A DNA stretch of 36,672 bases, taken from assembly GCA_013821605.1 (NCBI GenBank), contig JACDGP010000049.1:1-36672 (forward strand), given 5' to 3'. This DNA comes from Herpetosiphonaceae bacterium. GTDB taxonomy: Bacteria; Chloroflexota; Chloroflexia; Chloroflexales; Kallotenuaceae. Positions 9,984 to 20,527 of this stretch are shown in pieces. The notes below the pieces were generated by a model, which saw only the letters and a list, made by a program, of their open reading frames with translations, searched no databases and was not told the origin of the DNA. The translations under genes and the position numbers were made by a program. Numbering within the stretch: position 1 is the first letter of the stretch; every line of letters starts with the position of its first letter.

Positions 9984-10347
9984 TGGTGGAGATGGGGGGA
10001 ATCGAACCCCCGTCCAAAAAGGTCAGCCGCTGACATCTACGAGTGTAGACTGCTGATTATCTCCTCGCCTTCGACGCTCAACAGACCAAGCGTTGAGAAG
10101 ACCAGCCCGCTAATCTTAGGCGATGTGCACAGACACTTCCATCGCAGCAGCCCGACTAAATGACGCTCCCCACACACCGCCAGGCATAACATGCGGGGAA
10201 CGCGCTACACTAAACTAAATTAGGCAGCGAGCGCCATACGAGGCGCAGTGTTATGTTTGCCAGTTAAGGCGTTTGCCCTTTTTACGAAATTGGGCGTTTC
10301 GACTCGCAACCAACGACGTCAACTCCCTGTCGAAGCCAAGCATCCCC
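9984..10347 (-). ncRNA. ssrA: tmRNA (ssrA)
   Basis: This is the one-piece transfer-messenger RNA that rescues stalled ribosomes and tags the nascent peptide. On the minus strand the 5' end reads GGGGATGCTTGGCTTCGAC. The 3' end carries the T-arm GGGGGTTCGATTCCCCC followed by CATCTCC-A-CCA, which pairs with GGGGATG to close the acceptor stem; CCA is encoded. The tag frame runs from 10261 to 10220: resume codon GGC, then KHNTAPRMALAA and TAA, ending in the canonical ALAA. The total of 364 bases is normal for the family. It has its own promoter (10379-10407), so a short leader must be removed from the 5' end, normally by RNase P. Confidence 0.95.
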
Positions 10348-13500: not shown

Positions 13501-13797
13501 GGTATTCCCTCGGCCATTGGCCTTGGCCAAGGCAGTGAATTCCGGCGCGGGCTATCGGTCGCCGTGATCGGCGGCTTGCTGACCTCAACGTTGCTGACCT
13601 TACTGGTCGTGCCGATCGCCTATAGCTTGCTTGACTCATTCACGACGCGCTTCACAGGTCTGTTCCGGCGTCAGCCGAAGGAGTCGAAGGCGCAGGCACC
13701 GGCCGCAACGGGCGGCGTGGCAATGCTGCAAGTAGGGGATGGTACACCGCTCACCGTGTCGGGTGATATCGCGCAACCTCAGATGGTACATGAATAG
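10585..13797 (+). CDS. RND-family efflux transporter (AcrB/HAE1-like)
   Basis: This is a 1070-residue resistance-nodulation-division transporter, close to the length of AcrB. The first transmembrane helix is FIAMIMLLALVIGALAF (about residues 23-39), followed by a large extracytoplasmic domain with VAYPGAGAESV and two further repeats after the midpoint. Proton-relay residues are present: adjacent Asp406-Asp407 in VGLVIDDAIVVREN and Lys928 in GLVTKNSILLVDL, corresponding to AcrB D407/D408 and K940. The start ATG has AAAGGA nine bases upstream. The adaptor lipoprotein gene begins 22 bases after the stop and a MarR gene closes the operon. It should export lipophilic drugs or lipids using proton motive force. 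No outer-membrane channel gene is present, which matters if the host lacks an outer membrane. Confidence 0.93.
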   Translation: MSGAKEELNGNRIADTSIRQPVFIAMIMLLALVIGALAFTTLPVNLLPEISIPTIAITVAYPGAGAESVADLVAKPLEDAINTVNGVKHITSTSSEGITQITVELDTSVVLDKGEQDIRDKVNTVRPQLPLDVRDPVFARFDPNDQPIVSIAVTSDTRSPLELRKLVDNDIAPRLQRAQGVGSVTVSGGQVRQINVQMNLARLKALQILPAQLTHAIQTANTNQSLGTINAGDRDINLRAPSMLQTPADITHIQITGTSYKIGDVATVEDGIADADSYARLDGKDTITISVLKQSGSNTVSVAANTRAALAAVFAQQSDLKYTIPNDQSTSVSESVNSAIEELLIAAVSAMLVVLIFFRDLRNTLVTVAGLPVIMIATFAALKLFGLTINLISLLALSVSVGLVIDDAIVVRENIFRRMEYGETPRLASSRGTAEVALSVLAMSLTVIAVFLPVTFTGGITGIIFKSFGITVASAMAISLVEAFTLAPMLSAYFFKQRVPKASHAAAAANAGGELPEEGHEELGRLARGYGRILAWGLRHRSVIVLLALIVLVASVVVASGLKFSFFATQDNHQLVVGFDLPPGSPLAATNKLAQQAEGVLLKDPGVESVLTAVGGAGQAEHGQLTLLLRSTAQTAVVEGRMRSELGFLPKVVVGRTGFGGGSTSVSSRQLQVSIQTSGTVQDLVPLLQSLQGQAQTIPGLTDIDSTYQPGKPELQFQVDPARSGDLGITNDDLATSVRALINGDKATTLRQNGEDTDVVIRLAPGDRGNVSDIRNISLPTKQGSIPLSSLAHMQLTSGPTSIRRYDRLNQVLIGANVVGRNVAETQRDVTAALKQVALPNNVFVSFTGTTQQQNEGFATLFIAMGLSVLFVYMVLASQFGSFLQPFVIMLAMPFSFIGAFLALRIVGLDLDITGMIGLIMLLGLVTKNSILLVDLTNKLRAAGSAKHAALERACSVRLRPILMTTLALVAGGIPSAIGLGQGSEFRRGLSVAVIGGLLTSTLLTLLVVPIAYSLLDSFTTRFTGLFRRQPKESKAQAPAATGGVAMLQVGDGTPLTVSGDIAQPQMVHE

Positions 13798-13819
13798 TCT
13801 CGAAACAAGGAGTTCACAG

Positions 13820-15895
13820 GTGAAATTCAAAGTTCTTGGAACGACGTTCCTGGTCGGAACGGTCTTGCTGAGCGGTTGTAGCATGCGTCCCAGCACTGCT
13901 GCGACCCCCAAAACTGTAGCCGTACAGCAGACAACCAAACTGCCATCAACCACTGCTGCCCCGGTCGCGTCGGCTACGACGACGCTAGGTGCTTTCGAGG
14001 CTGGTGTCGCGGCGACAGGGGAAATTAAGGCGGCGCAGAATGCTGATCTCAACTTTCAAGTACAAGGCATCGTTGCAGACGTTAAAGTGCAGGAAGGTGA
14101 CAAGGTCAGCAAGGACCAGGTCCTCGCTGTGCTGGATCTGCGTCCCTTCGACCAGCAGGTCGACGCGGCCAAGGCGAATCTCCAAACTGCCCAGGCTCGG
14201 CTAGAGCAGGCCACTACCGGCAAGGCGACCGATCAAGACCTTGCTAGCCAGCAGGCAGCCGTTAATGGGGCCGAAGCGCAAGCCAATAAGGCTGCTACCG
14301 GCAATGTAACCGCCAATGATATCGCGAGTGCTCAGGCCAATGTCCGAGCGGCGGATGCCAATGTCGAAAAGGCCCGTACCGGGGGCGTTAAACCGGGCGA
14401 CATTGCCGGTGCCCAGGCTGCCGTTAATGGGGCCGTGGCCAATCTGCAAAAAGCACGCACGGGCGGCGTCAGGCCGGAGGATATTGCCGGTGCCCAGGCG
14501 AGTGTGCGGGCTGCCGAGGCCAATCTCGAAAAGGCTCGCACCGCTGGCGTTAGACCGGAGGACGTGGCGAGCGCTGAGGCAGCCGTGCAAGCGGCAGAAG
14601 CACATCTTGCAACGGCAGCACGTGGTGCTCAGCCGGATAAAGTGAGCGCGGCACAAACGGCACTTCAGACCGCTACACAGAATTTGCAAAAGGTGCAGGC
14701 GGCCGATTCTGCGGCGAAGACCAGTGCCTATCAGGCGATGCAGCAGGCTGCCGACAACGTTCGTAAGGCCCAGTCAGCCTATAGCACAGCCAACTGGAAC
14801 TACCAGCAGGCCCAGAATGGTACGGACCCCAAGACCGGCAAATCGATTAACGAGCAAGCAACCGATAAAGATATTGTTATCCAGCAGTACAAGGATGCCT
14901 TTGACCAGGCCACACTGAGCCTTAGCCAAAGCCAGTCGGCCTTGGCCCAAGCCAATGTCACGTATGACAACGTCCGCCAACAAGAAGTTAATGATGTCGC
15001 AAATGCCCAGACTCAGGTCGATAATGCTCAGGTGCAGCTTAACCAGACCCTGAAGGGGCCTGAAGCAACGGATCTCATTCCCCTCCAGGCTGCGGTCGAT
15101 CAGGCGCGTGCGAATCTGCAAAAGCTGCAAGCCGGTGGAGCGGCTGCCGACGTGGCGGCAGCCCAGGCTGCGGTCGATCAGGCGCGTGCAAATCTGCAAA
15201 AGCTGCAAGCCGGCGGGGCACCTGCTGACGTGGCGGCAGCCCAAGCTGCGGTCGATCAAGCACGTGCGAATCTGCAAAAGCTGCAAGCCGGTGGAGCGGC
15301 TGCCGACGTAGCAGCGGCGCAGGCAGCGGCAGACGCCGCGCGTGCAACCTTGCGCAAACTCCAGGCGGGCGGTACCCCTGCCGATATCGCTGCCGCACGA
15401 GCGCAGGTCGATGCCGCCCGTGCACAGCTCGCTAAGCTTTCAGCCGCAGCTGCTCCTTCAGATATCGACATTGCGAAAGCGGGCGTCGAATCGGCCCAGT
15501 CGCAACTGAGTGCTGCTGAGTTAAACCGCGACTGGGCAACGCTGCACGCGCCTTTCGACGGCATCCTCACCGTGCGCAATGTCGATCCGGGTGCTGATTC
15601 AACCGCTGCGAACAAAGGCAACATTGCCTTCCATCTGGTCGATCCTTCGCAGTTGCATATTGACGTCAATGTCAATGAAACCGATATCACCCAGGTACGC
15701 GTGGGCCAGACCGCTAAAGTCACGGTCGATGCACTAAAGGGCCAGGAGATTCAGGGCAAAGTGGTCTATATCGCGCCTGATGCAACCGTATCAGCCAACG
15801 TGCGCACCTATATCGTCCGGATCTCGTTACCCAAAGACAATGCCAGCCTACGAGTGGGCATGAGCGCGTCGGTATTAATCGTTACGGGGCAGTAG
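13820..15895 (+). CDS. HlyD/AcrA-type adaptor lipoprotein with repeat-built coiled coil
   Basis: This is a 691-residue membrane-fusion (periplasmic adaptor) protein, much longer than the usual 370-400. The N-terminus is a lipoprotein signal (GTTFLVGTVLLSGCS), so it is anchored outside the membrane. Residues about 55-110 form the first half of the lipoyl/barrel-sandwich domain (GVAATGEIKAAQN, VQGIVADVKVQEGDKV). Residues about 115-560 are two blocks of tandem Ala/Gln-rich helical repeats, 27 residues each in the first and 26 in the second, separated by a linker around NGTDPKTGKS. The C-terminal part restores the sandwich (WATLHAPFDGILTVRNVDPG) and the beta barrel (ITQVRVGQTAKVTVDA). GTG 13820 has AAGGAG seven bases before it. 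It would couple to the RND pump encoded upstream. Confidence 0.88.
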   Translation: MKFKVLGTTFLVGTVLLSGCSMRPSTAATPKTVAVQQTTKLPSTTAAPVASATTTLGAFEAGVAATGEIKAAQNADLNFQVQGIVADVKVQEGDKVSKDQVLAVLDLRPFDQQVDAAKANLQTAQARLEQATTGKATDQDLASQQAAVNGAEAQANKAATGNVTANDIASAQANVRAADANVEKARTGGVKPGDIAGAQAAVNGAVANLQKARTGGVRPEDIAGAQASVRAAEANLEKARTAGVRPEDVASAEAAVQAAEAHLATAARGAQPDKVSAAQTALQTATQNLQKVQAADSAAKTSAYQAMQQAADNVRKAQSAYSTANWNYQQAQNGTDPKTGKSINEQATDKDIVIQQYKDAFDQATLSLSQSQSALAQANVTYDNVRQQEVNDVANAQTQVDNAQVQLNQTLKGPEATDLIPLQAAVDQARANLQKLQAGGAAADVAAAQAAVDQARANLQKLQAGGAPADVAAAQAAVDQARANLQKLQAGGAAADVAAAQAAADAARATLRKLQAGGTPADIAAARAQVDAARAQLAKLSAAAAPSDIDIAKAGVESAQSQLSAAELNRDWATLHAPFDGILTVRNVDPGADSTAANKGNIAFHLVDPSQLHIDVNVNETDITQVRVGQTAKVTVDALKGQEIQGKVVYIAPDATVSANVRTYIVRISLPKDNASLRVGMSASVLIVTGQ
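15086..15475 (+). repeat. Five tandem 78-bp units inside the adaptor gene
   Basis: Units begin at 15086, 15164, 15242, 15320 and 15398. The first three are nearly identical and differ at only a few positions; the last two have diverged. Each encodes 26 residues of the pattern AQAAVDQARANLQKLQAGG. An older block with an 81-bp period (27 residues, ending in GGVxPxDIAG-like turns) lies at about 14330-14580. Near-identity at silent positions shows recent duplication or gene conversion. Confidence 0.85.
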
Positions 15896-16594: not shown

Positions 16595-17560
16595 CTAAGC
16601 AAGCGGTGCCCCGCGAGGCGTGCGATCAAGTATTGTCTCATACTGTACGCCGGTCAACTCCTCGGAGACCCTCCACAGCTGCTCTGCCACCACCCGATCA
16701 TAGGAGCGGGCACTGGAATGTACCTTGGCGGGCGACCCACGCATCTCCATGAAGCCGTCGGGACCAAAATACTCCCCGCCCTGTACATCAGGGGCTGTGG
16801 CTGCATAAATTATGGGCAGTGCCCCCCTTGCAGCACTTTGTGCCAGCACACGGTTTGCGACCGTCATCATTCCAGTTCTCAGCCTCGATCCTGCCATCTG
16901 CGGACCGGCAAGTTGCAGATTGGTCGCCGCGTAGCCGGGATGGGCTGCGACGCTGATTGCGGCTATCCCATGCGCTTCAAACTTACGCTGTAACTCATAG
17001 GCAAACAGGAGGTTCGCCAGCTTGCTCTGGCCATAGGCCCGCTGTGAATTGTAGCTTGTACGGCCCTGCAGATCGGCAAAGTCGATCTTGCCCGAGCGAT
17101 GGAGCACACTACTCATGGTCACGACGCGTGCTTGGGGCGTACGCAGGATGACGGGCAGCAGCAGCCCTGTCAGCGCGAAATGGCCCAGATGATTCGTCCC
17201 AAATTGCATCTCGAACCCGTCGGCGGTTTGCCGCATGGGCAGGTGCATCACCCCCGCGTTATTACACAGGATATCGAGTGCAGTGAAGCGCTGCACAAAC
17301 GTCGTGGCAAACTGTCGTACCGAGCCAAGATCGGCCAGATCAAGCGCCTCGACCACAAACGAGCCGGCGAGGTACTCGCGCTGCAGCATGGCGGCAGCTT
17401 CGGCACCTTTCGCCACGTCGCGACACGCCATCACAACATAGGCACCTTTACGCCCCAGTCCTTTGGCTGTTTCATAGCCTAGCCCACTATTAGCACCGGT
17501 AATAATCGCAGTTTTTCCCGTCAGGTCAGGGACCTGATCAATCGTCCAATGCTGAGCCAT
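16595..17560 (-). CDS. Short-chain dehydrogenase/reductase (retinol dehydrogenase-like)
   Basis: This is a 321-residue classical SDR related to the retinol dehydrogenase/WWOX-like group. The Rossmann nucleotide motif is TGANSGLGYETAKGLG (about residues 19-34). It is followed by VVMACRD, the structural motif LCNNAGVMHLP, the catalytic Ser in VVTMSSVLHRSG and the catalytic Tyr/Lys in YGQSKLANLLFA. The Arg after the second strand (ACRD) suggests NADP(H). The product is slightly longer than a minimal SDR because of a C-terminal extension. The ATG start has GGAGG seven bases upstream. It is divergent from the JAB-like gene; the 182-base gap contains two dyads. The substrate is unknown, probably a lipophilic alcohol or aldehyde. 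Confidence 0.88.
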   Translation of the reverse strand: MAQHWTIDQVPDLTGKTAIITGANSGLGYETAKGLGRKGAYVVMACRDVAKGAEAAAMLQREYLAGSFVVEALDLADLGSVRQFATTFVQRFTALDILCNNAGVMHLPMRQTADGFEMQFGTNHLGHFALTGLLLPVILRTPQARVVTMSSVLHRSGKIDFADLQGRTSYNSQRAYGQSKLANLLFAYELQRKFEAHGIAAISVAAHPGYAATNLQLAGPQMAGSRLRTGMMTVANRVLAQSAARGALPIIYAATAPDVQGGEYFGPDGFMEMRGSPAKVHSSARSYDRVVAEQLWRVSEELTGVQYETILDRTPRGAPLA

Positions 17561-17651: not shown

Positions 17652-17742
17652 CGGTAGAGTTGCCCGCCACATGTGTCAGCCAATCGAGTAGAATAGTGCG
17701 CTAGAAGCCGTTCGTCCCGCAGCGTAAGAAGGATGCTGGTAC

Positions 17743-18972
17743 GTGCAATCTCCAAACTCTCAACCCCGCATAGTCGTTGCCCGTTCGGTGATCGAGGTGC
17801 TACAGCAGGCCGCTATAGGACCGGTCATCGGCGGTATTCTGGTTGGCAAGCGACTGTCCGGCAACCAAATTGCCATCGTCGCAGCGAGTACGCCTGGTCC
17901 CGCGCCGGACAATCATCAGCTAGGCTTTGCCCTGGACCAAACGCATGCTAATGCCACGCTCGAAGATTGGTTCACGCGTGATGCTACTGTCGACTTCCTT
18001 GGCCTTTGGCATACCCATCCTACCGAGCTTGCTCGGCCCCCGGCGGCCGATGTGGCGGTCGCTCAGAAGCTGTTGGCTGATCCCGCCTACAACACGACCG
18101 AACTTGTCAACCTGATCGTACAGCTCGATCAGCGCGTCCCACACATCCGGTGTTTCTACCTGCACCACGACCTTGCCAGCACTGCTGCCGTCAACTTTGT
18201 CACCTATGAGATCCTGGATGACACCAATCCACGCCTGCTCAGGCCAAGCGTAGCGCAATCAACGAGCGCCCCTGCGAGCGAGGTCCCAGCGTTGGGCAAG
18301 GTCCCAACCGTTGTGCCTCGGACGAAGTTGCGCGCGGTAGCACTCGTATGCCTGCTGGCCGTGCTGCTGGTCGGCGGGCTGCTGGCTGCCCAGCAACTGA
18401 GTCGAGCCGGCAGTTCCGCTGCTGACGGGCAGTCTACAGCTGCGACGGCAACGCGCGGGAGCACTGACACGACCAGTCCGGCAACACGTGCGGCCGGTAT
18501 CGCACCGGCCACCGCTTCCATCACCACGCTCCCACCGGCCACGACTACGAGTAGGTCAGTGACGACGGAGCCTGCCGCCATTGTGGCAACGACGCCATCG
18601 CCGGTACCATCCCTCCAGTCCAGTACTGGCTTGCCATATGCCTTGCGGCTTGAACCGATGGACGCTGCCTACCGGCAAGGTTTCCTGAATCGGCTCCGCC
18701 TAGCCAAGTGCGTCGGCTGTTATAACATTGATATCGTCAGCCCGGTGCCATTTCGCGAGATGCGCCTCAAAATAGTCGGCAGTGGGGGGCCGCCACTGAC
18801 TACCTACGCAGCACCCAGTCCTGCCGAGTTCACGCCGCGCCCACAACCCTATACGCTGCAAGCCTTCGATCTCCAGGGCAATCCCCTGAGCGAGCCCCTC
18901 ACCTTTACCGTCGCTAGCGGTAGCTTCTACGTCCTGCGCATCACCCCAGTTCCCCAAAGTGCTGTCGGGTGA
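17743..18972 (+). CDS. Membrane-anchored JAB/MPN-like protein with altered JAMM motif
   Basis: This is a 409-residue protein in three parts. Residues about 8-165 resemble a JAB/MPN metalloprotease fold. The zinc motif is mostly present (His90-x-His92, then Asp103 after ten residues, in LWHTHPTELARPPAAD), but the catalytic Ser position is Pro100, and the upstream Glu expected before the GGILVG strand is not seen. Residues about 192-215 are a single transmembrane helix (AVALVCLLAVLLVGGLL). A Ser/Thr-rich linker follows, and then a C-terminal domain with CVGC. The N-terminal domain would be cytoplasmic and the rest outside. The GTG start has GAAGGA upstream. JAMM enzymes cleave isopeptide bonds of ubiquitin-like tags, but with two key residues changed this one may only bind. 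No E1, E2 or ubiquitin-like gene is adjacent. Confidence 0.65.
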   Translation: MQSPNSQPRIVVARSVIEVLQQAAIGPVIGGILVGKRLSGNQIAIVAASTPGPAPDNHQLGFALDQTHANATLEDWFTRDATVDFLGLWHTHPTELARPPAADVAVAQKLLADPAYNTTELVNLIVQLDQRVPHIRCFYLHHDLASTAAVNFVTYEILDDTNPRLLRPSVAQSTSAPASEVPALGKVPTVVPRTKLRAVALVCLLAVLLVGGLLAAQQLSRAGSSAADGQSTAATATRGSTDTTSPATRAAGIAPATASITTLPPATTTSRSVTTEPAAIVATTPSPVPSLQSSTGLPYALRLEPMDAAYRQGFLNRLRLAKCVGCYNIDIVSPVPFREMRLKIVGSGGPPLTTYAAPSPAEFTPRPQPYTLQAFDLQGNPLSEPLTFTVASGSFYVLRITPVPQSAVG

Positions 18973-19109: not shown

Positions 19110-19379
19110 ATGAATAACGTATATTCGTCACGAGAAACCGAGGTCGTTGTACAACTTCATCAGCCACTTATAGCTATCCCGTTTGAGCAGAATGGCGAAG
19201 AAGTCGTGCACTACTTCTTTGATGATGCGCAGGCTGACATAGCGCTTGGACAAGATGGTCGCCAAGGTGCCATCAAATTAGCTGCGGTATGGAGCGATCT
19301 AGATGGTGATGCAATGCTAGCCAGTCTTGAGCAATGGCGGCGTGAGAGCCCACCCACGCCTCCCTTAGAATCGCTCTAA
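19110..19379 (+). CDS. Small antitoxin-like protein
   Basis: This is an 89-residue, acidic, soluble product (start MNNVYSSRETEVVVQLHQPLI) with no domain I recognise with certainty. Its size, its C-terminal tail (ALEQWRRESPP-like in SLEQWRRESPP) and its position four bases before a PIN-type gene suggest the antitoxin of a VapBC-like pair. The sequence resembles no AbrB, RHH or Phd fold that I can identify. It is preceded by a perfect inverted repeat that could serve autoregulation, which is usual for such pairs. The partner gene looks damaged, so this may be an orphaned antitoxin. Function is inferred from context only. Confidence 0.5.
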   Translation: MNNVYSSRETEVVVQLHQPLIAIPFEQNGEEVVHYFFDDAQADIALGQDGRQGAIKLAAVWSDLDGDAMLASLEQWRRESPPTPPLESL

Positions 19380-19383
19380 CCTC

Positions 19384-19665
19384 ATGCGACGCTATCTGTT
19401 AGATACAGGCCCATTAGCTGCATACTTATTAGGTCGGCAACGAGCCATACAAACGATAGATCCGTGGCTTGATCGGCATGAGGCCGCGACGAGCATTCTA
19501 GTCTACAATGTTGTTTATATTGGCACTTTCGTACAAGCCGATCCGATTGACGAAGAGCGGCGTTCCAGCATCCGCCTGAACCATATTCAGTATGTTGGCG
19601 TTACGGACTTAAATTGGCTACAGTTTGCTGAAGGTGGGCAGAATCCTATACGGTACCTTCCCTAG
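19384..19665 (+). pseudogene. Degenerate PIN-domain (VapC-like) toxin
   Basis: The 93-residue frame starts like a PIN ribonuclease: MRRYLLDTGPLAAYLLGR, with the first catalytic Asp at residue 7, followed by a TSILVYN strand. The acidic residue expected just after that strand is replaced by aliphatic residues (YNVVYIG). The C-terminal half, which should hold the other acidic metal ligands and bring the length to about 130, is missing or scrambled. It follows the antitoxin-like gene by four bases. It is probably an inactivated toxin; a divergent short PIN protein is the alternative. Confidence 0.5.
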
Positions 19666-19667
19666 TT

Positions 19668-20527
19668 GTGTTCGCTCAGCCGCGTTATTTATATTGGAGC
19701 AGAAGCTCAACTTTGTACAATAGACCAAGCCAGGATAGCCACACCTGTTTTGCGATCATCCGTCACCCGCGTATGTTGCAGGTGCTGGTACTGCCTTCCT
19801 CAGGCGGCTGGGAGCTGCCGAGCGTTGCACTGCCGGGGCTGGAGGGCGATAGCTGGTGGCGCGAGGCTACAGCCATCAACGCAGCGTTCGGAGCATTGCT
19901 GGGTTGGACGGTCACCACGCAGTACTGCGCCGGGGTTGACACCTTCACGCCTGGGACTGGCAGTCTGTTTGTCCTGGAAGTCCATGACCTGGCTCCGGCA
20001 CTCCCCGTGGGCGGGCGTTGGGTGGATCGTGTAGAACTGGAGGCTCTCCACTTGGCGCTTCCTGCACACCGCTCGGTGCTACAGGCCGGATTTGCGGAGG
20101 TGACCCAGGGCCTCGATGTGACCGGTCGCCTAGCCTGGACTCGACCTGGCTGGTTTGCTACGGCGGCCACGTGGATCGAGGAACAGCTGCATGGCTGCGG
20201 CCTGGCGCCAGTTGGGCCGGTCGAACAGGTTCGCACTTGGCATTGGTCATGCATTCTGCGAGTGCCCACCACCGAAGGAGCAATCTATCTCAAAGCAGCG
20301 CCGCCAATGTATACCTACGAGCCCGTGCTGACGCAAAACCTAGCGGAGGGGTACTCAGAGCGGTTGCCACCCGTCCTTGCTGTCGAACCCCAGCGGGCCT
20401 GCTTTCTGGCGCATTGGGTCACCAACTCCAGCTAGCCGCTGCCCCACCGCTCTGGGATGCGGCGATCGCCCGCTCCAACCTGGCTTGGTGCTTACGGGAA
20501 CTCATCAAGGTGGTCCCGCTGGGCTAG
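19668..20527 (+). pseudogene. Broken NUDIX-like / phosphotransferase gene
   Basis: The first frame (to 20435) reads like a protein with an N-terminal NUDIX-type region (VLVLPSSGGWELPSV) and the beginning of an aminoglycoside/choline-kinase-like phosphotransferase (VEQVRTWHWSCILRVPTTEGAIYLKA, then LPPVLAVEPQRACF). It stops abruptly at HWVTNSS. A second frame carries the continuation (ALGHQLQLAAAPPLWDAAIA) to the stop at 20527, so a frameshift occurred near 20400-20430. The kinase catalytic loop and Mg site are absent, and the start region also lacks a convincing ribosome site. The gene is therefore both frameshifted and truncated. Family assignment rests on recalled similarity and is moderate. 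Confidence 0.5.

Follow-up and report, generated by a model that had tools for sequence, protein, structure and literature searches.

A membrane-anchored JAB/MPN protein with an altered active site in a Herpetosiphonaceae bacterium, possibly an orphaned pseudo-JAMM

Can a bacterial JAB/MPN protein that has lost key active-site residues still cut isopeptide bonds and, if not, what might it be kept for? This question is raised by a gene in 36,672 nt of contig JACDGP010000049.1 (GCA_013821605.1) from a Herpetosiphonaceae bacterium, the whole stretch of DNA that we analysed and call the window; its genome is coded G000. A sequence-only reading had noticed a JAB/MPN-like domain with two altered key residues joined to a membrane helix, and our analysis confirmed that this observation is real (Table 1). 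The ORF has 409 codons and no internal stop. GC by codon position is 0.66/0.535/0.653, similar to adjoining genes; of the six frames, the coding one has the highest codon score over the whole ORF. Sequencing error as the source of the altered residues was considered and rejected because the reading frame stays open on either side of the changes, which comprise two separate sites plus a deletion.

Table 1. Features of the JAB gene and its product, in window positions
Feature	Positions	Strand	Remarks
Shine-Dalgarno-like AAGAAGGA	17726..17733	+	9 bases 5' of GTG; read from sequence
Complete ORF, 409 aa, GTG start	17743..18972	+	JAB/MPN domain, TM helix, low-complexity linker, C-terminal part
JAB/MPN domain, ~residues 7-158	17761..18216	+	Pfam PF14464, PADLOC JAB, AlphaFold, VIA
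Residue 28, Val	17824..17826	+	relatives' catalytic Glu position; short deletion directly before
Metal-ligand motif H90-T-H92	18010..18018	+	
Residue 100, Pro	18040..18042	+	relatives' Ser position
Third metal ligand, D103	18049..18051	+	
TM helix core, residues 198-216, RTKLR just before	18334..18390	+	mean hydropathy 2.85; AlphaFold helix 194-223
Thr/Ala/Pro-rich linker, residues 224-295	18412..18627	+	pLDDT <50 at 228-260 and 262-295
C-terminal part, residues 299-402	18637..18948	+	low-confidence strands
C323-V-G-C326	18709..18720	+	

The JAB/MPN domain and its active site

Several lines of evidence identify the N-terminal domain. Residues 30-111 match Pfam PF14464 (Prok-JAB) at E=1.9e-6 and 28.2 bits against a cut-off of 25 (30.9 bits in the genome scan), and residues 18-143 match the PADLOC JAB profile at E=1.1e-18. 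The sole solved relative by sequence is PDB 9ild, a peptidase entered in the fold library under the title Cap3 with CD-NTase (E=6.5e-5; with a profile, 6.9e-10). AlphaFold, given an alignment of the protein with 31 relatives, modelled approximately residues 1-160 well along with the helix at 194-223, and the remainder mostly with low confidence. By VIA-align the modelled N-terminal domain superimposes on the Rpn11 homologue 6fno_B (Z 17.5, rmsd 2.2 over 142 residues, model residues 4-156) and on the CBASS protein Cap3 (Z 16.6, rmsd 2.3 over 138 residues), and the Foldseek and VIA-align matches also include COP9 signalosome and proteasome-lid chains. The fold result depends on the sequence match and is not independent of it because the AlphaFold input alignment was made of JAB proteins. 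Structure prediction and comparison with MPN folds had been proposed as the check on the sequence-only reading, which an unrelated fold would have contradicted; the fold is MPN.

The residues of the active site were also as first read. The motif H-x-H-x10-D is intact as H90-x-H92-x10-D103. The Glu of the relatives' E-T-G-G motif is missing, with Val at the aligned position (GPVIGGILVG where the relatives have LETGGILVG), and just upstream of this segment the window protein lacks, as counted by eye, 5 to 8 residues that the intact rows of alignment A1 have. The active-site Ser, present in 21 of 23 aligned rows, is Pro100. Glu occurs in the same 21 rows, the two exceptions being the window protein and a protein from genome G025, and the second His of the motif is lost in G025 only. 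In a larger alignment (A5, 32 rows) H90, H92 and D103 are invariant and the Glu and Ser nearly so; homologues that failed to conserve the two His and the Asp would have spoken against the first reading. Thus, the active site is altered in the manner claimed: the protein has the His-x-His and Asp of a catalytic JAMM metalloprotease, the three metal ligands, but neither the Glu (now Val) nor the Ser (now Pro).

The changes extend beyond these two positions. Counting as conserved those columns shared by at least 10 of 11 intact rows gave 30 columns, of which the window protein keeps 20 and the G025 protein 17; the intact rows, each omitted in turn, keep 27-30 of 30-32. Lost residues include Glu23, Glu28, Thr29, Lys91, Ser100 and Gly102, and those kept include GG-x-L-x-G, W89, both His, D103 and D113-P114.

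Membrane helix and predicted topology

The protein had also been read as membrane-anchored, which both hydropathy and the AlphaFold helix bear out. A single strong TM helix is present in the window protein and in each of nine relatives tested, and in having this helix follow the JAB domain the window protein resembles the Chloroflexia gene set described below. The window protein and two relatives have a further, less strongly hydrophobic stretch (1.72-1.86) elsewhere. Basic residues precede the TM helix, suggesting a topology in which the JAB domain lies inside and the linker and C-terminal part lie outside.

The protein has Cys at 137, 203, 323 and 326, the last two forming a CxxC. The CxxC of the proposed extracytoplasmic domain is therefore present, and it is predicted to lie outside the cytoplasm. 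Modelled by itself, the C-terminal part gave a poor result (mean pLDDT 43), and its similarity to the same part of three relatives was not significant, with 31, 61 and 599 of 1000 shuffles scoring as high. In one relative (L024 78-1802, genome G086) the C-terminal part of the JAB protein matches LysM, which fits an outside location of the C-terminal part.

Relatives and their ubiquitin-like conjugation gene set

The gene upstream of the JAB gene is a divergent short-chain dehydrogenase gene (16595-17560). A Pfam scan of 18 neighbouring ORFs in the window found efflux, regulatory and metabolic genes among them and no gene for an E1, E2, ubiquitin-like protein (Ubl), CD-NTase or Cap2. The first reading had noted that no ubiquitin-like partner adjoins the gene. 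This is true of the window and does not extend to the family: seven genomes with relatives pair the JAB protein with an E1 and E2, as follows.

With the window protein as query, 11 of 158 genomes of the class were matched, and a 13-row JAB profile matched 12 of the 158. The profile matches show a step between nine genomes (13 genes) at E<=4.8e-55, where rows used in building the profile score high by construction, and three genomes at E>=7.6e-12. Eleven of the 13 strong genes, in seven genomes, encode all of the Glu, His, His, Ser and Asp. Sources of relatives include Candidatus Chloroploca sp. Khr17, Chloroflexales bacterium ZM16-3, Candidatus Chloroheliaceae bacterium and several Chloroflexi MAGs. 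A search of the phylum matched 12 of 400 genomes; apart from class genomes already known, all that it added was remote or questionable (E 3.2e-7 or weaker). Scanning genome contigs with the single protein returned no relatives; the same scan with alignment A2 returned 59 loci, which were not used to gauge how rare the loss of residues is, as the scan pattern, around W-H-x-H, favours intact sites.

Conserved neighbours had been proposed as a further check, and the relatives have them. Eight of the 11 intact JAB genes share their stretch with a ThiF-type E1 from a single cluster (cut at the contig end in L021); the remaining three sit on short contigs or next to a contig end. The one E1 scanned matches Pfam ThiF at E=2.2e-33. 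The gene set includes an E2 of ~150 aa in which a Cys is invariant in six aligned rows. Searching with a profile of this E2 recovered solved E2 proteins (6.1e-7 and 3e-4), and PADLOC E2 recognises one member (1.5e-19). Genes for kinase-WD40 and TPR proteins lie near some of the JAB genes. Several relatives' JAB proteins may also contain an RWD/E2-like part between the JAB domain and the TM helix, for which support is weak: it matches a ubiquitin-conjugating enzyme at E=1.1e-4, FANCL at 0.0037 and the E2 alignment (A3) at E=6.4e-4 with a probability of only 28%. One stretch (L020) also encodes a YukD-like protein, whose match (E=1.2e-4) falls short of the cut-off. A YukD search matched four of 14 genomes; YukD is unreliable as a marker of the gene set because G021, G084 and G086 have the set yet gave no match. 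Four tandem YukD-like matches fall in one 679-aa open frame of another genome (G006:C1476:3692-4660; L138, L141, L143, L144), a possible poly-Ubl in a genome that carries the JAB/E1/E2 set.

We examined whether broken active sites accompany missing partners. Strong E2 matches (E<1e-65) occur in seven of the 158 genomes, all among the nine with the strong JAB family; weak ones occur in four more (2.4e-17 to 1.3e-6). An E1 profile run on 15 genomes found a ThiF-like match in all, and the operon type (E<1e-85) only in the same seven. The seven genomes with E2 all have intact JAB sites, and the two with the JAB family and no E2, the window's and G025, both have broken ones. Profile searches of the window's own assembly (99.57% complete, 259 contigs) found no A3-type E2, operon-type E1 or YukD; an assembly gap as the cause of the E2 absence is unlikely but possible. 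G025 likewise has no A3-type E2 or operon-type E1 by profile search. Its JAB gene (L030 8776-11136) encodes a second degenerate orphan membrane JAB, in which Glu is Arg, the second His is Gln and Ser is Arg, and which has no Pfam Prok-JAB match. The exact chance of the association between E2 and active site in nine genomes is 1 in 36, although a fair figure is nearer 1 in 8 because odd residues were the reason for choosing the window, which leaves G025 as the sole independent case. The association is a lead and no proof.

The own genome contains other JAB genes. Two non-RadC Prok-JAB matches, on contigs C71 and C196, show Glu, H-x-H, Ser and Asp in their translations. On C196, away from the window JAB, is a sulfur-carrier-type set (L040 3629-6576) with genes in a row that we name by eye as cysteine synthase, JAB, CysO-like Ubl (94 aa) and MoeZ-like; the last is the genome's E1-profile match (1.3e-23).

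Possible roles of the window protein

The reading that we favor, at a confidence only somewhat above even, is that the window protein is an orphaned membrane-anchored pseudo-JAMM, kept as a non-catalytic and probably metal-binding module. Its most likely origin would be the JAB deconjugase type of the Chloroflexia ubiquitin-like conjugation operons, which hold E1, E2 and in one case a Ubl. That ancestral type would have been tethered to the inner membrane by one helix, with the JAB domain inside and the linker and C-terminal part outside. The tree, in which only five of the 20 inner branches have good support, does not place the window protein within the membrane-anchored group but leaves it by itself; its identity to any row is 32% at most. 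Descent from the operon type therefore rests on the profile score, architecture and helix. In the window lineage the operon, and the RWD/E2-like part of several relatives, would then have gone missing. The JAB domain would have lost its general base (Glu to Val, beside the short deletion) and active-site Ser (to Pro) and retained its three metal ligands, so that metal binding at H90/H92/D103 seems probable. To judge from the residues, isopeptide cleavage has most likely been lost. Binding would be the likeliest remaining use of a metal-stabilised MPN fold, whether of a Ubl-like C-terminus or of some other protein, an active JAB partner for instance, in the manner of eukaryotic MPN-minus subunits. 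The earlier suggestion of a sensor or binding module rather than an isopeptidase is compatible with the data.

The main rival, which we consider rather unlikely, is a decaying relic: the gene would be drifting after loss of the conjugation operon, and His/His/Asp would be chance survivors. The missing matches to E2, operon-type E1 and YukD in the assembly are consistent with this, as are the 10 of 30 conserved columns altered in the window protein, the G025 protein that is further gone and has lost its second His as well, and the five other genomes of the window's family, none of which matches the JAB profile. Retention of 20 of 30 columns would also suit relaxed constraint, and selection is not measurable because the window protein is the only sequence of its genus. 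Against drift stand the 409 stop-free codons, the gene-like codon positions and the Shine-Dalgarno-like site, together with the survival of GG-x-L-x-G, W89, both His, D103 and D113-P114 and a confident MPN model, though one whose input alignment was of JAB proteins.

Less likely, and in our view improbable, is that the protein is still an active metalloprotease that uses another residue as general base on an altered substrate. All three metal ligands are intact, as this would require, but Glu and Ser are both lost, and JAMM Glu mutants are generally inactive. A substitute base is also hard to find nearby: the Glu at position 23, conserved in the 11 intact rows, is Ala, and residues 19-39, the segment bearing the relatives' Glu, contain no acidic residue. 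It is similarly improbable that the protein is a pseudo-partner that recruits the intact JAB of C71 or C196 to the membrane by dimerising with it, since, even with two such proteins in the genome and eukaryotic MPN-minus chains of such pairs among the fold matches, there is no gene linkage and both proteins lie in ordinary contexts.

The orphaned pseudo-JAMM that we favor can be set beside known systems. Eukaryotic MPN-minus pseudo-JAMMs (CSN6, Rpn8 and kin) likewise have an MPN fold without a working active site, and the COP9 signalosome and proteasome-lid chains noted above belong to this comparison. Unlike them, the window protein keeps the metal ligands and loses only Glu and Ser, has a membrane anchor, and belongs to no known complex. 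Compared with Cap3 of type II CBASS, it lacks the Glu and Ser and has the anchor and a predicted outer part. The closest NCBIfam models are Cap3 and ICE_VC0181, both scored far under their cut-offs (33.8 bits for the Cap3 equivalog NF050170, cut-off 200). Operons related to those of the Chloroflexia may be described by Burroughs and colleagues (2011), whose work is cited in PMC7159879.

Iyer et al. (2006, PMC1779556) described prokaryotic operons that comprise a Ubl and JAB along with E1, E2-like and RWD-like components, JAB being typically fused to E1. The relatives' sets also combine E1, E2 with Cys and JAB, in one case with a YukD-like Ubl, and their RWD/E2-like part without a conserved Cys recalls its operon type 6e. 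In place of E1, the Chloroflexia JAB carries a putative RWD-like part and a TM helix, and genes for kinase-WD40 and TPR proteins lie close by; none of the partners occurs in the window. BilABCD is a bacterial Ubl, E1, E2 and JAB set with BilC as its JAB (PMC11354881); our likening is by description, and the own genome is without the relatives' E2. Ubl systems with JAB, E1, E2 and E3 also appear among conflict systems (PMC7159879). The JAMM family is said to contain seven pseudo-DUBs, and pseudo-DUBs, most numerous in that family, to serve as allosteric activators and scaffold components (PMC10919355). Searching titles and abstracts, with subscription literature mostly outside the search, we found no paper on a membrane-fused gene set of Chloroflexia or a bacterial membrane pseudo-JAMM. 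What is new here is the family context of the window JAB, with its relatives of intact site and their conjugation gene set.

In this small set of genomes, absence of the conjugating E2 and E1 is accompanied by loss of the JAB protein's catalytic Glu and Ser. If true in more genomes, this would offer a natural test of why a JAB is kept when no conjugates are left to cleave, as well as a bacterial parallel to pseudo-deubiquitinases. A further point of interest is the Chloroflexia membrane-anchored JAB/RWD/E1/E2 gene set, which Pfam recognises only in part. A wider generalisation, unlikely enough that we offer it as speculation, is that membrane-tethered JAMM domains of Chloroflexia repeatedly outlive their conjugation operon and become metal-bound, non-cutting receptors at the inner membrane, in parallel to eukaryotic MPN-minus proteins; here such a receptor may read the CysO-like Ubl or tether an active JAB, its outer CxxC part passing on an envelope signal.

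The window has other features outside the JAB gene. Downstream of it are two adjacent short ORFs (89 and 93 aa, 19110-19665) that by eye resemble an antitoxin and the beginning of a PIN-domain toxin; they have no Pfam match and a low third-position GC (0.44-0.45). A 255-aa ORF follows at 19668-20527, overlaps another frame and is perhaps a broken gene; a Pfam scan of 19668-20432 gave zero matches. A tmRNA gene with tag peptide GKHNTAPRMALAA lies at 9984-10347 on the minus strand. At 13739-15895 is a gene for an HlyD-type fusion protein with many near-identical repeats, which adjoins an AcrB-type pump and a MarR regulator.
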